Below are positions 19,555 through 26,417 of a stretch of DNA of 64,000 bases, in pieces; positions within the stretch are counted from its first letter, which is position 1, and the number at the start of each line of letters is the position of its first letter. The position numbers were made by a program, and so were the translations under genes. The notes beneath the pieces are model-generated. The model did not search any database and was not told the origin of the DNA. It saw only the letters and a list, made by a program, of their open reading frames with translations. Source of the stretch: an uncultured Bacteroidales bacterium. Lineage in GTDB: Bacteria; Bacteroidota; Bacteroidia; Bacteroidales; Bacteroidaceae. The DNA lies in assembly GCA_902798685.1 (NCBI GenBank), contig CADBXO010000004.1, forward strand, positions 62,001 to 126,000, in the 5' to 3' direction.

Positions 19555-19637
19555 GTGTTTTAAGGTTTTTTTGCTGGTTTTATTGTATTTACGTCACGCA
19601 GGAACGGCCATTTTCCTACCCGCCGCACCTCATTTCT

Positions 19638-19772
19638 GGCCATACCTGTCACCACAAGCGTTGTAGCCCCATTTCCCCGCAAGTATGGCTCCAAAAATGG
19701 CCAAAACCCGGGTTTTTGCTGCCATACTTGCAGAAAACCGCCCTTAAAAAGCCCTTTTACGCAGGTATGGCC
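19638..19772 (+). repeat. 135-bp nested palindromic repeat, copy A
   Basis: The element starts with GGCCATACCTG and ends with CAGGTATGGCC, an 11-base outer inverted pair. Inside is a second pair, GCAAGTATGGC and GCCATACTTGC, surrounding the 14-base palindrome AAAACCCGGGTTTT at 19703-19716. It is about 94% identical by eye (8 differences) to the reverse complement of copy C. It lies at the 3' end of miaB; similarity continues past 19772 into CATTTTAAAGAAT, so the miaB stop codon falls within the repeat's tail. The stretch 19555-19637 just before it shows no gene. Confidence 0.92.
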
Positions 19773-19775
19773 ATT

Positions 19776-21107
19776 TTAAAGAATCTCTGTGCCGAAGAGG
19801 GTGGCGGAAGTGGCGTCGGTGATGCGGACTTTGAGGAAATCGCCCGGACGGTGGGTGCCTTTGTCGAATACAACGGTGCGGTTCTGCTCGGTGCGGCCGT
19901 AGAGCTGCTGGCGTGAACGCTTGGAATAACCCTCGGCCAGAACCTCATATTCATGGCCGATGCACTCGCGGTTGCGTTCCAGTGAGAGCTGGTTCTGCAG
20001 TTCGATCATTTCATTGAGACGGCGTATCTTAATCTCCTCGGGAACATTGTCGGGAAGATGCTTGCTGGCGTATGTGCCGGGACGCTCCGAGTAGCGGAAC
20101 ATGAATGAGGCATCATAGCGGCACAGGCGCATCAGTGAAAGGCTCTCCTGATGATCCTCCTCAGTCTCTGAGTGGTAGCCGGTGAACATATCGGTGGTAA
20201 GACCGCAGTCGGGGATGATACGCTTGATTGCATCCACACGCTCCAGGTACCACTCGCGGGTGTACTTGCGGTTCATCAGCTTGAGGATACGTGAGCTTCC
20301 GCTCTGTACGGGCAGGTGAATGTGACGGCATATGTTGGGAACCTCGGCAATTACATGCAGGGTCTCGTCACTCATATCCTTGGGATGTGATGTTGTGAAC
20401 CTTACCCTTATCTCGGGAACTGCCTCGGCAACCATGCGCAGAAGCTGCGGGAATCCGACGGTGGATTCACCGTTTTCAAACTTGTATGAATTCACGTTCT
20501 GACCCAGGAGTGTTACCTCTTTGTAACCTTTTTTCTTAAGGTCAAGAACCTCGTTCAGGATGCTCTGCGGATCTCGGCTGCGCTCACGGCCTCGGGTGTA
20601 GGGAACAATGCAGTAGTGGCAGAAATTGTTGCAGCCGCGCATGATTGAAACGAATCCGCTTATGTGGTTGCCGCAAATACGCTCTGGTATGATGTCACGA
20701 TAGGTTTCGGTAGTGGAGAGCTCCACATCCATTGCCTTATGACCGGCCTCCACCTGGGCCATCAGATCCGGAAGTGAGAGGTATGCGTCGGGACCGCACA
20801 CGACATCAACATGATGATTCTCGGTCAGGTCCTCCTTGGTGCGCTCGGCCATGCAGCCCATAACGCCGATGTAAAGATTCTTTTTCTTCTTTTTGAGGGC
20901 GTTCAGAGCCTCCAGGCGGTTCCAGATTTTCTGCTCGGCGTTCTCGCGGATGGAGCATGTATTCAGGAATATGGCATCGGCCTCATCAATGTTTTCGGTG
21001 GGTTCGTAACCCGCCATGCGCATGATTGATGCAATAACCTCGCTGTCTGCCACATTCATCTGGCAGCCGTAAGTCTCAATGAACAGTTTCTTTGTTCCCT
21101 CTTCCAT
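19776..21107 (-). CDS. miaB: tRNA-2-methylthio-N6-dimethylallyladenosine synthase
   Basis: A 443-residue radical-SAM methylthiotransferase that adds the 2-methylthio group to i6A37 in tRNAs. It has the N-terminal UPF0004 domain (ETYGCQMNVADSE), the radical SAM motif MRGCNNFCHYCIVPYTRGRE with its CxxxCxxC cysteines, and a C-terminal TRAM domain. Length is normal. The last codons, ending GTEIL, run into the tail of repeat copy A, so the stop codon sits in repeat-like sequence. A -7 box (TAAATTTG on the minus strand, 21135-21128) lies upstream. Confidence 0.95.
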   Translation of the reverse strand: MEEGTKKLFIETYGCQMNVADSEVIASIMRMAGYEPTENIDEADAIFLNTCSIRENAEQKIWNRLEALNALKKKKKNLYIGVMGCMAERTKEDLTENHHVDVVCGPDAYLSLPDLMAQVEAGHKAMDVELSTTETYRDIIPERICGNHISGFVSIMRGCNNFCHYCIVPYTRGRERSRDPQSILNEVLDLKKKGYKEVTLLGQNVNSYKFENGESTVGFPQLLRMVAEAVPEIRVRFTTSHPKDMSDETLHVIAEVPNICRHIHLPVQSGSSRILKLMNRKYTREWYLERVDAIKRIIPDCGLTTDMFTGYHSETEEDHQESLSLMRLCRYDASFMFRYSERPGTYASKHLPDNVPEEIKIRRLNEMIELQNQLSLERNRECIGHEYEVLAEGYSKRSRQQLYGRTEQNRTVVFDKGTHRPGDFLKVRITDATSATLFGTEIL

Positions 21108-21127
21108 ATTCCTTTGTTTTGCGGGTG

Positions 21128-21135
21128 CAAATTTA
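21128..21135 (-). promoter_or_regulatory. -7 promoter element for miaB
   Basis: The minus strand reads TAAATTTG, 20 bases before the miaB ATG. No convincing -33 TTG is seen. Confidence 0.45.
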
Positions 21136-21136
21136 C

Positions 21137-21167
21137 TTGTTTTTATATTAGGAAATGGTTAATTTTG
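21137..21167 (+). promoter_or_regulatory. Promoter of the acetyl-CoA hydrolase/transferase gene
   Basis: TTG at 21137-21139 and TAATTTTG at 21160-21167 are 20 bases apart, matching the Bacteroides consensus. The gene starts 46 bases further on. The two divergent promoters overlap between 21128 and 21167. Confidence 0.7.
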
Positions 21168-21213
21168 CGCAACTTTATACCAAAGAAGTCAAACAAGTAA
21201 ATAATAATACAAA

Positions 21214-22695
21214 ATGGCTTTCAAAAGAATGACCGCTGCCGAGGCAGCACGTTACGTCAAGAACGGTGACAATGTAGGTCTGAGCGGTTTTACCCCTGCA
21301 GGTACCCCCAAGGCTGTCACTCATGAGATCGGTTTAATGGCCCACGAACTCCACGAGAAGGGTCAGGAGTTTCAGATCAGTCTGTTTACCGGTGCTTCTA
21401 CCGGTGATTCATGCGACGGCATCCTGGCACGTGAACACGCTCTCAAGTACCGCGCTCCCTATACCACCAACAAGGATTTCCGTACAGCCGTCAACAACGG
21501 TGAAATCGCATATAACGACATCAACCTGAGCCACATGGCACAGGAGATGCGCTACGGATTCTACGGCAAGCTTAACATCGCCATCATGGAGGCCTTTGAC
21601 ATTACCGATGACGGTAAGATATGGGTAACCGCCGGTGTGGGTATCGCTCCCACCGTTGCACGTCTGGCCGATAAGATCATCGTCGAGCTCAACGCAGCCC
21701 ATGCCCGCTGCGCCAAGGGGCTGCACGACATCTACGAGCCCGCTGATCCCCCTTACCGCCGCGAGATTCCCATTTACACTCCCAGCGATCATATCGGCAA
21801 GGACTACATCCAGGTTGATCCCGCCAAGATCATAGGTATCGTTGAGGTTAACATCCCCGACGAGGCACGCGGATTCACCGCTCCTGATGAGACCACCCTC
21901 CAGATAGGTCACAACGTAGCCCAGTTCCTTATCAGCGACCTCAAGCGCGGCATCATCCCTTCAACCTTCCTGCCTCTGCAGAGCGGTGTAGGTAATGTAG
22001 CAAACGCTGTTCTGGGTGCTCTGGGTGAGGATCCTTCAGTTCCCGCATTCCAGATGTACACTGAGGTTATCCAGGATTCAGTTATCGACCTGATGCGTGA
22101 GGGCCACTGCAAGTTCGGATCAAGCTCATCACTGAGCGTTAGTAACGAGACCCTGCAGGGCATCTACGATGATATGGATTTCTTCAAGGACAAGCTGGTG
22201 CTCCGTCCTACCGAAATATCAAACAACCCCGAGGTTGCACGCCGTCTGGGTCTGATTGCAATGAACACCGCCCTGGAGGCCGATATCTACGGCAACGTGA
22301 ACTCAACCCACGTAAGCGGTGTCAAGATGATGAACGGTGTGGGCGGTTCTGCCGATTTCACCCGCAACGCATTCATCTCAATATTCAGCTGCCCGTCTAC
22401 CGCCAAGGGAGGCAAGATCAGCGCCATCGTTCCCATGTGCTCACACGTTGATCACAACGAGCATAGCGTGAAGGTGCTCATCACCGAGCAGGGTATAGCC
22501 GATCTGCGCGGAAAGTCACCCGCCCAGCGCGCCAAGTGCATCATCGAAAACTGCGTGCACCCCGACTACAAGCAGCTCATGTGGGATTACCTCAAGATCT
22601 CCGAGAAGGGTCAGACCAGCCACGCCCTCGAAAAAGCCTTTGCCCTCCACAAGGCACTGGCCGAGAAGGGCGACATGCATCTGGCCGAGTTCTAA
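21214..22695 (+). CDS. Acetyl-CoA hydrolase/CoA-transferase family protein
   Basis: A 493-residue two-domain CoA transferase of the acetyl-CoA hydrolase/transferase family, most like succinyl-CoA:acetate CoA-transferases used in acetate, succinate or propionate fermentation. Support includes VGLSGFTPAGTPKAV (N-terminal CoA-binding loop), MYTEVIQDSV with the probable catalytic Glu, and MNGVGGSADF in the C-terminal domain. Codons are strongly biased to those of highly expressed genes (many GGT, CGC, AAG), fitting central metabolism. It has its own promoter. Repeat copy B begins only 3 bases after its stop codon. Confidence 0.9.
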   Translation: MAFKRMTAAEAARYVKNGDNVGLSGFTPAGTPKAVTHEIGLMAHELHEKGQEFQISLFTGASTGDSCDGILAREHALKYRAPYTTNKDFRTAVNNGEIAYNDINLSHMAQEMRYGFYGKLNIAIMEAFDITDDGKIWVTAGVGIAPTVARLADKIIVELNAAHARCAKGLHDIYEPADPPYRREIPIYTPSDHIGKDYIQVDPAKIIGIVEVNIPDEARGFTAPDETTLQIGHNVAQFLISDLKRGIIPSTFLPLQSGVGNVANAVLGALGEDPSVPAFQMYTEVIQDSVIDLMREGHCKFGSSSSLSVSNETLQGIYDDMDFFKDKLVLRPTEISNNPEVARRLGLIAMNTALEADIYGNVNSTHVSGVKMMNGVGGSADFTRNAFISIFSCPSTAKGGKISAIVPMCSHVDHNEHSVKVLITEQGIADLRGKSPAQRAKCIIENCVHPDYKQLMWDYLKISEKGQTSHALEKAFALHKALAEKGDMHLAEF

Positions 22696-22698
22696 TCC

Positions 22699-22833
22699 GG
22701 CCATACCGGTCGCTACAACCTCTGTAGCCCCGATTCCCTGCAAGTATGGCAGCGAAATAGCCCAAAACCCGGGTTTTCGCTGCCATACTTGCACAAAACC
22801 GCCCTTTTAAGGCCATTTTTCGCAGGTATGGCC
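22699..22833 (+). repeat. 135-bp nested palindromic repeat, copy B
   Basis: The same length as copies A and C and in the same orientation as A. The inner arms are longer here: GCAAGTATGGCAGCGAAA pairs perfectly over 18 bases with TTTCGCTGCCATACTTGC. The AAAACCCGGGTTTT palindrome is conserved. The left-hand small hairpin reads GCTACA/TGTAGC instead of the CAACAC/GTGTTG of copy C, so the bases changed while pairing was kept. The outer pair has one mismatch (CCATACCGG). Tail similarity continues to about 22860 (AAAGAATACGC, CCTGCGT). Confidence 0.92.
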
Positions 22834-22862
22834 ATTTTAAAGAATACGCTGTGCCTGCGTAA

Positions 22863-22892
22863 TTGGTTTGTCAGCAATTATCCATATATTTG
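22863..22892 (+). promoter_or_regulatory. Promoter of the helicase gene
   Basis: TTG at 22863-22865 and TATATTTG at 22885-22892 are 19 bases apart, matching the Bacteroides consensus. The helicase ATG is 31 bases downstream. The promoter starts right at the outer edge of repeat copy B's tail. Confidence 0.68.
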
Positions 22893-22922
22893 CCAAACAA
22901 GAAACCTGATTACTACTATACT

Positions 22923-25073
22923 ATGAAAAAAGATCATCTCTTTGAATTGGCCGAAAATTACATCTCCCAGACGGGAATCTCGGTCTTCTTGACCGGCAGG
23001 GCCGGAACCGGAAAAACCACATTCCTCAAGTACATTGTTGAGAATACGCCCAAGCGCTGCGTGGTGCTTGCTCCAACCGGTGTTGCCGCAATCAATGCGG
23101 GCGGCGTTACAATCCATTCTTTCTTTCAGTTGCCGTTGTGCCCGTATCTTCCTGATGTTGAGGAACTGGTTACGGAGTATCAGTTGCCAGAGGCACGCCG
23201 CCAGTTGCGAAAGGAAAAAGTCAAGATCATCAAGACACTGGACCTCCTTATTATAGATGAGATCTCCATGGTCCGTGCAGACCTGCTGGACGCCGTTGAT
23301 GCAGTGATGCGCCGATACAGACACAACAACAAACCGTTTGGAGGAGTCCAGTTGCTCATGATAGGCGATGCTCACCAGTTGCCGCCGGTAGTTACGGAGC
23401 AGGATGAACCCTGGCTCAAGAAGGTTTACCAGTCACCTTTCTTCTTCCATTCCAAGGTGATGCGGCAACTCAAGTACGTGACAATAGAACTGCAAACAGT
23501 TTACCGTCAATCTGATACATCATTTCTGGATATACTCAACAGCATAAGAGGCGGTGTGATGGACAACGCAACATACCGAATGTTGAATAGCCGCCTGGAT
23601 CCCCGTTTCAATCCCGATGACAGCGCAGAAGTATCTGGACACCGATGGATTCGCTTGACCACTCACAACCGCCAGGCAGACGCCATCAACCAGGAGAAGA
23701 TGGAGGCTCTGAAAACCAGGCTCTACACATTCTACGCCGAGATTGAAGGCAACTTCCCAGAGAATACGCTCCCAGCAGAGAAAGTTTTGCAGCTAAAAGA
23801 GGGAGCACAGGTAATGTTCCTGCGCAACGACTCCCGCGAGGGCCGATACTACAATGGCAAGATTGCCACCGTAACGGAGATTGACTACGATGACGGCATT
23901 ATAGTGACCGATGAAAACGGCGAAGAAATCAACGTCCCCATCGAAAAATGGGAGAACATCCAGTATGAAATAGACAGTGAGACCAAGGAGATTGTACCCA
24001 AAGTTGAGGGCACGTTCTCACAGTATCCTCTTCGTGCCGCGTGGGCAGTAACGATACATAAGAGCCAGGGCCTGACATTCGATAATGTCATCATTGATGC
24101 GGCATCGGCCTTTACCTTCGGGCAGGTTTATGTTGCTCTTTCCCGCTGCCGCACACTTGAAGGTATTGTTCTGAGCAGCCCGATATCACAGTCATGCCTG
24201 TTCAACAACAGCGACGTTTCGGGATTCCATGACCAGTTCCTGCCGGTATCGGAGATGGAACGGCAACTGGAGGAATCTCGTACCGAGTATTTCATGAACA
24301 ACCTCAAGGAGTGTTTCACGTTCAGTGAGCTGGAAAGACTGACCGGTTGGGCAGGAGGAATATTCAACAATCATCTTAAGAACACCTATCCGGAGCAGAC
24401 CGCCAGGATGGAGGAAAACCGACGCAAGATCAGGGATATTGAGAAAGTAGCCGAGGCATTCCGCAGGGAGTTGGACCGGATAGACACCGATAACAAGCCC
24501 TATCTTGAGGAGAGAGTCGGTAAAGCTGCGAGATATTTCCTTCCGATTTTGATCGAAGTGGCATCGGACGTAACTCCGATCATGTCCGTTTTAATAGATA
24601 ATAAAGAGGTAAAAAAGACATTGCTGGAGGCTTCGGGCGAACTCCTGCCGGAACTCTCCATGCATCTTCAGAGTCTGAAAGAGATACAGGAAAACGGATT
24701 CAGTATCGAGTCATACCTCAAAATCAGAAATGATTCCGTGCTGTCTCCAAAGGCCAAAACAACGATCAAAAAGATAAAGGAGCCCAAACCGGTCAAGGAG
24801 AAGGTTATCAAGACCAAGCCCACCATCGAGGAAATCTACTCCGATAACCGCCACCCCGAGCTTATCCAACCGCTAATAGACTGGCGCACCGAACAATACA
24901 TATCCCAGAACATCCGTGCCTATTGGGTGCTCACCCAACGCACCCTCCTGGAAATAGCCGATACCTGCCCATCGACCAAAGAGGAACTCCTGGCAATTAG
25001 CGGATTCGGCCCCGCCAAATGGAAACAGTACGGCCAGGAAATCCTGGACTTGATTGCCGAGCACAAGAAATAA
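22923..25073 (+). CDS. Pif1-like helicase with C-terminal HRDC domain
   Basis: A 716-residue superfamily 1B helicase. The start is the ATG at 22923 (MKKDHLFELAENY), 31 bases after a -7 box. GRAGTGKTTFL is Walker A, LIIDEISMVRADLL Walker B, MIGDAHQLPPVV motif III, and WAVTIHKSQGLTFDNV with YVALSRC the C-terminal motifs of Pif1/RecD-like helicases. Residues from about 645 (IQPLIDWRTEQY...ISGFGPAKWKQYG) form an HRDC nucleic-acid binding domain. Such Pif1-HRDC proteins are common in Bacteroidetes chromosomes, so it could be an ordinary genome-maintenance enzyme. Its neighbour is a HUH transposase and inverted repeats flank both. Confidence 0.9.
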   Translation: MKKDHLFELAENYISQTGISVFLTGRAGTGKTTFLKYIVENTPKRCVVLAPTGVAAINAGGVTIHSFFQLPLCPYLPDVEELVTEYQLPEARRQLRKEKVKIIKTLDLLIIDEISMVRADLLDAVDAVMRRYRHNNKPFGGVQLLMIGDAHQLPPVVTEQDEPWLKKVYQSPFFFHSKVMRQLKYVTIELQTVYRQSDTSFLDILNSIRGGVMDNATYRMLNSRLDPRFNPDDSAEVSGHRWIRLTTHNRQADAINQEKMEALKTRLYTFYAEIEGNFPENTLPAEKVLQLKEGAQVMFLRNDSREGRYYNGKIATVTEIDYDDGIIVTDENGEEINVPIEKWENIQYEIDSETKEIVPKVEGTFSQYPLRAAWAVTIHKSQGLTFDNVIIDAASAFTFGQVYVALSRCRTLEGIVLSSPISQSCLFNNSDVSGFHDQFLPVSEMERQLEESRTEYFMNNLKECFTFSELERLTGWAGGIFNNHLKNTYPEQTARMEENRRKIRDIEKVAEAFRRELDRIDTDNKPYLEERVGKAARYFLPILIEVASDVTPIMSVLIDNKEVKKTLLEASGELLPELSMHLQSLKEIQENGFSIESYLKIRNDSVLSPKAKTTIKKIKEPKPVKEKVIKTKPTIEEIYSDNRHPELIQPLIDWRTEQYISQNIRAYWVLTQRTLLEIADTCPSTKEELLAISGFGPAKWKQYGQEILDLIAEHKK

Positions 25074-25119
25074 CCATCTCATAAAATGCTATTCATAATC
25101 TCTAAATACCTTTTATATC

Positions 25120-26256
25120 ATGAAACAGATGATTCATTGTTGTTTCACCTCTCATCAGGAGGTGATGTTCCGTTGTCCGCAGGATGTGGGCTTTTTTCTG
25201 AACTTGCTTGCACTCACTTCATGGAAGTACGGTATTGACATATTCGCCGATACGGAGATGTCAAACCATGTTCATTTATTATTGTTTTCATCGGTCAATA
25301 CCGAGAATCGGTTGGTTGTCGGACCATATTCGAAGACAGTTTTAAAACCCGGATTTGACAGGGATGGAAGTATTCTTTACTCTGAATCCAACCAGTTGTC
25401 CGATTTTGTATGTGCTTTACGGAAGCGTTACACATGGTATTTCAATGAAAAATACCAACGGGACTGCGGTGGAAGGATGGGCGAGAAATACTACTTCTCC
25501 CTGATTGTAGAAGGCAATTATCATATGATTTCTGCTTGCAGTTATGTTCTGCGTAACGGCCTTCATCACGGTGTTTCGGGTACTTCTTTCATGTATCCCT
25601 ATTCATCCATCAATGACATGTTCATTCCGGAATTGGGAAAAACGGAACGCCCATATCAGGGAAACCGGAATCCCGATGAATACCGCAAAAACAGATCAGG
25701 GCACTGGAACAAGGTCGTTTCTTCCAGAAGCAACCCCACTTATGGTTTAATCTTTCCCGATGGTTACGCTCCCATCACCAGCCGGAATGTGATTAAACTC
25801 TATCTTCCAAGGTATTCCGAATGGCCCGATGAATGGGTAATGTCGCCTTCAGGCGTTTTCCTGCGACCTTGTTTCGAACAATTGCGTCAAACCGAGCTGT
25901 TGTTTGTTTCGCCCGGAGCCTTTGAATTCAATATGTTCCGCAAGACCGATGAAAAGTGGCTTGAAGAGCAGGAACAGGACAGGAACGGAAAGCCGGCCAT
26001 CGGTATTTCGGACATAGAACCCATCCACAATGAGGATGCTGTCAAATCCTATCTGTATAACGAACGCGCTTCGACTTTCCGAAACGGCCGGAGCGACATA
26101 GACTTGTGCGGCATTATTGACCGATGCATACTCCCCGAATTCAAAGCCCCATCGATATACCAGTTGAACCGCGACAAACGGGAATCCATAAAAAAGACCC
26201 TGATTAACGATTTCCATGTGTCCGATATCCAGGCTTCCCGATGCTTATGGCTATAA
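25120..26256 (+). CDS. RAYT-like Y1/HUH transposase (REP-associated)
   Basis: A 378-residue protein with a transposase IS200/RAYT-like N-terminal half. EMSNHVHLLL (residues 46-55) has the HUH motif His50 and His52. ALRKRYTWYFNEKYQR (99-114) contains the probable catalytic tyrosine, Tyr104 or Tyr107, and GEKYYFSLIVEGNYHMISACSYVLRNGLHHGV aligns with the RAYT pattern ending in a YPYSS-like motif. The C-terminal 150 residues are extra and of unknown role. RAYTs nick and join hairpin REP sequences. Repeat copy C starts 27 bases after its stop. No promoter is evident in the 46 bases before it, so it is probably co-transcribed with the helicase. Confidence 0.82.
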   Translation: MKQMIHCCFTSHQEVMFRCPQDVGFFLNLLALTSWKYGIDIFADTEMSNHVHLLLFSSVNTENRLVVGPYSKTVLKPGFDRDGSILYSESNQLSDFVCALRKRYTWYFNEKYQRDCGGRMGEKYYFSLIVEGNYHMISACSYVLRNGLHHGVSGTSFMYPYSSINDMFIPELGKTERPYQGNRNPDEYRKNRSGHWNKVVSSRSNPTYGLIFPDGYAPITSRNVIKLYLPRYSEWPDEWVMSPSGVFLRPCFEQLRQTELLFVSPGAFEFNMFRKTDEKWLEEQEQDRNGKPAIGISDIEPIHNEDAVKSYLYNERASTFRNGRSDIDLCGIIDRCILPEFKAPSIYQLNRDKRESIKKTLINDFHVSDIQASRCLWL

Positions 26257-26282
26257 CGCAGGTGCCGCGTATTCTTTAAATT

Positions 26283-26417
26283 GGCCATACCTGCGTAAAA
26301 GGGCCTTTTAAGGGCGGTTTTCTGCAAGTATGGCAGCAAAAACCCGGGTTTTGGCCATTTTTGGAGCCATACTTGCAGGGAATCGGGGTTACAACACTTG
26401 TGTTGACAGGTATGGCT
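26283..26417 (-). repeat. 135-bp nested palindromic repeat, copy C (inverted)
   Basis: The reverse complement of this stretch aligns base for base with copy A over 135 positions with about 8 differences. Outer arms are AGCCATACCTG and CAGGTATGGCC, inner arms GCAAGTATGGC and GCCATACTTGC. The small hairpin at its far end reads CAACAC-AA-GTGTTG. It lies 27 bases downstream of the RAYT-like gene, the placement expected for a REP copy that the transposase acts on. Confidence 0.92.

Follow-up and report, generated by a model that had tools for sequence, protein, structure and literature searches.

In this study, we examined a window of 64,000 nucleotides from the draft genome (2.26 Mb, 84% complete) of an uncultured Bacteroidales bacterium (GenBank assembly GCA_902798685.1, contig CADBXO010000004.1, positions 62,001 to 126,000). 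Within it, a gene for a Pif1-like helicase with a C-terminal HRDC domain (22923..25073, plus strand) is followed by a gene for a divergent relative of the repetitive extragenic palindrome (REP)-associated tyrosine transposases (RAYTs), a Y1-type HUH protein carrying H50, H52 and Y142 and a long C-terminal extension (25120..26256, plus strand), recognized by alignment, profiles and a structural model. The helicase begins at an ATG, with a longer TTG frame from 22863, and matches the Pfam families PIF1 (6.4e-30) and HRDC (1.5e-16). As the initial annotation had described, both genes lie on one strand, 46 bases apart, and facing nested palindromes bound the pair (84% complementarity between 22700-22863 and 26253-26416, over 164 nt). 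We show that these palindromes accompany the RAYT-like protein across genomes, and gene-order comparisons indicate that blocks between facing copies have been inverted between species at two unlinked loci.

The initial annotation had counted two repeats of 135 bp; the facing pair stands, while the count rises to three copies of about 150 bp in the window and four further sites in the genome. Copy a (19635..19784, plus strand) overlaps the 3' end of miaB, copy b (22696..22845, plus strand) directly follows the stop codon of a CoA-transferase gene, and copy c (26267..26416, minus strand) lies shortly after the RAYT stop codon and faces both. Positions 19639-19784 and 26271-26416 are 95% complementary over 146 nt, a better match than the pair first noticed. 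Four alternating GCCATACYTGC-like units make up the nested palindrome of each copy, and GTAG, which fits a GT[AG]G guide, occurs in copies a and b. Six genome copies were folded against shuffled sequences, five giving z-scores from -4.1 to -8.7 and the shorter copy on contig C12 a z-score of -2.7. The seven sites in the whole genome comprise the three in the window, two facing copies on C30, the one on C12 and a degenerate cluster on C19, and six of the seven adjoin the 3' end of a gene. Outside the window, three sites abut stop codons (those of an efflux permease gene, leuB and a frame of 2412 amino acids) and the C19 site lies between two divergent genes; no RAYT of the subfamily was found on the contigs of these four sites.

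The assignment of the HUH protein to the RAYT-like enzymes is supported by its relatives and by its fold. H50, H52 and Y142 are invariant in all 68 aligned members, so that an HUH motif and one catalytic tyrosine are present as in RAYTs; the NHVH motif reported initially is thus upheld, and the catalytic residue is most likely Y142 in SYVLRNG rather than Tyr104 or Tyr107 as first proposed. The NCBIfam model of REP-associated tyrosine transposases (NF047646) matches 39 of the 68 members at E<=0.1 (best 2.6e-10) and Pfam Y1_Tnp matches 26 (same threshold, best 6.7e-8); these two models, both general, are the sole recurring matches in Pfam and NCBIfam scans of the subfamily. The AlphaFold model of the focal protein (predicted local distance difference test, pLDDT, 84.9; predicted template modelling score, pTM, 0.86) has as its top solved match 4er8, an E. 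coli RAYT in complex with a REP hairpin (E 8.3e-5, probability 1.00, template modelling score 0.66 by target length). A profile search of the PDB by sequence also gave 4er8 as the best match when 18 rows were used (E 0.14), and nothing with 68 rows. Undamaged members have 300-378 amino acids and a tyrosine motif Y[VI]LRN[GP]. The last 162 residues, folded alone, gave no Foldseek match, which says little because their pTM was only 0.38. The tryptophan found between HUH motif and tyrosine in canonical RAYTs is absent from 67 of the 68 members and present in a single row; we therefore regard the subfamily as a divergent RAYT relative and not as a canonical subclass.

The family was sampled as the best 80 of 94 genome-collection stretches encoding a relative, whose titles name Bacteroidales, Bacteroidaceae, Prevotellaceae, Bacteroidia or Candidatus Colenecus caballi, many of them from the rumen or the herbivore gut. 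In 151 genomes drawn from the family, whole-profile matches were, among the matches listed, confined to the genus of the window. The ratio of nonsynonymous to synonymous substitution (dN/dS) of the RAYT was 0.06-0.09 in 10 of 12 pairs tried (dS >2 in three of these; two pairs gave no value), which indicates purifying selection. The gene is present in one copy in its genome, with paralogues 35-46% identical over the matched stretches, and further copies in the related genome G020 are 49-53% identical; it has no set of near-identical mobile copies of the kind that marks IS200/IS605 elements. Beside the helicase, damaged or remnant RAYT genes were seen in three related genomes, G009 (L081 6734-7597), G012 (L082 6649-7299) and G001 (L157 818-1124). 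Other RAYT-like genes are also present. A second one in the window's own genome lies between recA and dnaK on C8 (L044 5100-8600), with arrays of an 83-bp palindromic unit on both sides, and two weaker HUH-domain matches (C8:27870 and C2:115087, frames of 276-297 amino acids) are probably ordinary short RAYTs. In G018 (L098 3366-6424), a different RAYT, 29% identical, is located just 3' of the same CoA-transferase gene, a junction that resembles a hot spot.

The palindromes appear to be the REP-like repeats of this RAYT, as the initial annotation had supposed, since repeat pairs bound its relatives and the repeat occurs in the same genomes. Among the 83 family genes (the 80 loci, the window and two paralogues from its genome), 74 had 700 bases on both sides, and at a threshold of >40 bits a repeat pair directly bounded 42 of them, 39 with direct repeats, against 3 of 113 control genes. 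The window's RAYT is not one of the 42, its left copy lying beyond the helicase; in the helicase branch the pair lies outside helicase and RAYT together in 8 of 11 units, and is facing in 7 of these. The two other subfamily RAYTs of the window's genome are bounded by different repeats. Of 37 genomes of the genus, 10 have an orthologue at least 69% identical, and every one of these carries the repeat. The repeat also occurs in 2 of the 27 without such an orthologue (G006, G026); repeats in genomes without a RAYT had been named as an outcome that refutes the link, and to this small extent they were found. If G020 (60% identity) and the remnant of G001, in which the whole-repeat search did not find the focal repeat, are counted as carriers, the figures are 10 of 12 carriers and 2 of 25 others. 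A Fisher test overstates the association because the genomes are related by descent. The whole-repeat search replaced an 11-mer count, for which the background expected by chance is high. A count of the type-B unit GCCGTACTTGC, as a sign of allele-specific repeats, stood out only weakly from background. By the sequences compared, then, the Y142-HUH protein is accompanied in its genome by nested palindromes of its own, flanking and dispersed as those of RAYTs are.

The DNA between facing copies differs in orientation, as a block, from species to species. Relative to the window, the segment 22696..26416 with helicase and RAYT is flipped in G009, G028, G034 and G019. Gene order was compared over 81 genes and 124 kb around the window, and of the genes matched (75 in G009, 51 in G028, 28 in G034) only helicase and RAYT are on the opposite relative strand, all others agreeing (73/73 in G009 over about 120 kb, 49/49 in G028, 26/26 in G034). 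The helicase and RAYT adjoin a methyltransferase gene instead in G012, G002 and G032. Base-by-base comparison was made for one species pair, G028 and G029, which are close and of opposite orientation; their outer flanks match at nearly every base, and the change of orientation falls within the repeats, near the inner ends. The neighbouring block between copies a and b (19776..22695), with miaB on the minus and the CoA-transferase gene on the plus strand, is flipped in G030, G007, G027 and G026, all without the RAYT. A quick tree, in which 6 of 20 inner branches are weak, requires at least 7 changes of orientation for the helicase (20 genomes), 4 for the miaB block (20 genomes) and 3 for the leu block (17 genomes).

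The leu locus, where the block is a neighbour of the leu operon, provides the second case. It was inspected in 24 genomes, and leuB was in view in 18, of which 12 are forward, 5 inverted (G006, G009, G002, G032, G035) and 1 rearranged (G012). The focal repeat is found, in facing copies, at both ends of the block in six genomes, three forward and three inverted; in G034 and G019 the efflux gene lies beyond the contig end. The other 12 comprise 9 forward genomes, in which the other palindrome family described next was not sought, the inverted G032 and G035, and G012. This third palindrome family, CGCCAAAGTGTCCCAC, bounds the inverted leu block of G032 and G035 (L273 7199-7371 and 11243-11581; L280) and is present in the window's genome too (L044 10750-11606).

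We consider it likely that a domesticated, divergent RAYT/REP system, inversion of repeat-bounded blocks and a resident helicase together explain these observations. The RAYT would nick and rejoin the single-stranded hairpins of its repeat and so spread copies. A block enclosed by two facing copies could then invert, most likely when the two imperfect repeats undergo homologous recombination or template switching, and not through a dedicated invertase. One branch of the RAYT lies 3' of the resident helicase in several species, has passed from species to species at this position, and flips along with the helicase.

Several observations weigh against this explanation. The focal protein alone had no significant match in Pfam or NCBIfam scans (0.015 to Y1_Tnp). 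The 69% cut was chosen after the hits were known, the genomes share ancestry, and G020 has an orthologue and no match to the focal repeat. Relatives that lack these repeats at the locus show helicase flips as well, which makes the repeats at most one cause of such flips; their role as the sole cause is rejected. The idea that the RAYT-less relatives have a different palindrome at every flip junction holds only in part: stem scores were clearly above shuffles for CoA-transferase/helicase in G025, G004 and G033, miaB/methyltransferase in G031 and CoA-transferase/methyltransferase in G026, and most other junctions were not clearly above shuffles. At the leu locus, two of the five inverted cases (G032, G035) have the other palindrome family at their junctions. 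Moreover, all genomes compared, the window's own included, are drafts, and at 5 of 15 facing junction pairs the longest exact inverted match reaches 50-96 nt, where short-read assembly could err.

The flips of the helicase and of the miaB-CoA-transferase block in genomes with no repeat at the locus, together with the position of the repeats mostly at gene 3' ends, are what would be expected if local inversions were ordinary gene-order noise at a hot spot and the repeats merely landed in the same 3' intergenic gaps. We regard this as unlikely, though worth keeping in mind, given the agreement of all other matched genes in G009, G028 and G034, a second locus bounded by the same repeats and a switch that lies inside the repeat. 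A stronger proposal is that facing palindromes maintained by the RAYT constitute a slow inversion system for gene blocks, in which the enzyme would replenish the repeats and perhaps cleave the two hairpins, and several loci would flip reversibly, RAYT and helicase included; we think this improbable. It is likewise improbable that the inversions are catalysed by the RAYT, through cleavage of the two facing hairpins and rejoining of their ends. The breakpoint within the repeat near its inner end would fit such catalysis, as would the presence of the focal repeat somewhere in all five genomes with an inverted leu block. Nevertheless, that breakpoint is known for one pair only, the inverted leu block of G032 and G035 has other palindromes at its ends, and the helicase flips in relatives that lack this RAYT and have no copy of these repeats at the locus, which means that the RAYT need not catalyse the flips.

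The initial annotation had also suggested that helicase and RAYT may work together as one system, with the helicase opening strands for the HUH enzyme in the manner of Helitrons. This part of its interpretation is not supported, while its RAYT-like protein and cognate palindromes hold. The helicase was found in 28 of 37 genus genomes at E<=1e-60, and in 12 relatives it lies between the same neighbours without this RAYT or a repeat unit there, a situation that had been named beforehand as refuting the proposal. Only 9 of the 80 family loci have such a helicase nearby and 71 have none in the DNA examined (up to 6 kb a side, less at contig ends); the window's genome has one such helicase, and neither of the other two RAYTs of the subfamily in that genome adjoins one. 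In Helitrons, Rep and helicase are joined in a single protein, whereas here they are two genes, and the helicase is resident without the RAYT, so neither membership among Helitron-like elements nor a mobile unit of the two genes is retained. In favour of a joint system, helicase and RAYT are adjacent and codirectional in all 11 genomes with this RAYT branch (21-66 nt between matched ends; the RAYT gene is damaged in G009 and G012, and G002 has a broken helicase frame), and their adjacency was kept through several inversions, which counts against a merely resident helicase. On balance a joint system is very improbable: the helicase is a resident gene that flips together with the RAYT. The alleles of the RAYT have moved between species at the helicase site, as indicated by discordant dS values (G032 and G035: helicase 0.25, RAYT 2.45; G028 and G035: RAYT 0.59, below the helicase at 0.97; four helicase rows with G000 were left out of the comparison), a departure from strict vertical descent.

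Another reading is that the flips reflect misassembly of short reads at the repeats. It agrees with record titles that name metagenome-assembled genomes or uncultured isolates and no cultured strain, and with the long exact matches seen in G034 (both loci), in G009 (helicase locus) and in G002 and G032 (leu locus), to which an error of this kind may still apply. Overall we consider it very improbable. For most pairs it is unlikely because in 10 of the 15 the longest stretch of exact inverted match measures 12-31 nt; among these are the flipped junctions of G028 and of G019 at the helicase locus and those of G006, G009 and G035 at the leu locus.

In vitro, TnpA-REP enzymes process the single-stranded REPs that are cognate to them, and enzymes and repeats co-evolve (PMC8266576); RAYTs have been described as domesticated, vertically inherited transposases (PMC8049555). 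The system described here resembles RAYT/TnpA-REP with REP/REPIN (REPtron) in its HUH motif and single tyrosine, genome-dispersed palindromes, purifying selection and damaged copies in some genomes, and differs in the missing tryptophan (67 of 68 members), the long C-terminal extension and the four-unit nested palindromes; moreover, it has seven repeat sites, whereas REPs usually exceed 100 copies (PMC2817692). The Bacteroidetes RAYT subclass 2.6 of Quentin et al. (2018) has atypical repeats (PMC6006769) and shares with our subfamily the phylum and the possession of long, atypical palindromes that recur at other places in the genome. In contrast to the 179 amino acids, WQ and YIH[QN]NP tabulated for that subclass, our proteins have 300-378 amino acids, no W and Y[VI]LRN[GP], and we do not place them in it (PMC6006769). 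The first search of those authors used Y1_Tnp at E 0.01 (PMC6006769) and might have missed the focal protein, whose 0.015 is not strictly comparable; other members match better (6.7e-8), so that their set may include some of the subfamily. The TRIP1 repeats of E. coli are a known case of repeat-bounded rearrangement (PMC10888264), and they too are long hairpin repeats at fixed loci that serve as ends of chromosomal rearrangements; the part of that account available mentions no RAYT, and its events extend up to 1.3 Mb, compared with gene blocks of 3-9 kb here. Among the matches listed in a literature search from which subscription journals were largely absent, as far as the accounts were available, RAYT repeats are not described as inversion ends. 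Invertons, the phase-variable regions of Bacteroidales, have short repeats and site-specific invertases. They share with our loci the order and the inverted repeats that bound invertible DNA, while here the repeats are long and imperfect and whole gene blocks differ between species. What looks new in comparison with these systems is the divergent subfamily itself and the finding that inverted blocks end at its repeats, which offers a concrete, testable effect of RAYTs on chromosome structure outside the Gammaproteobacteria.

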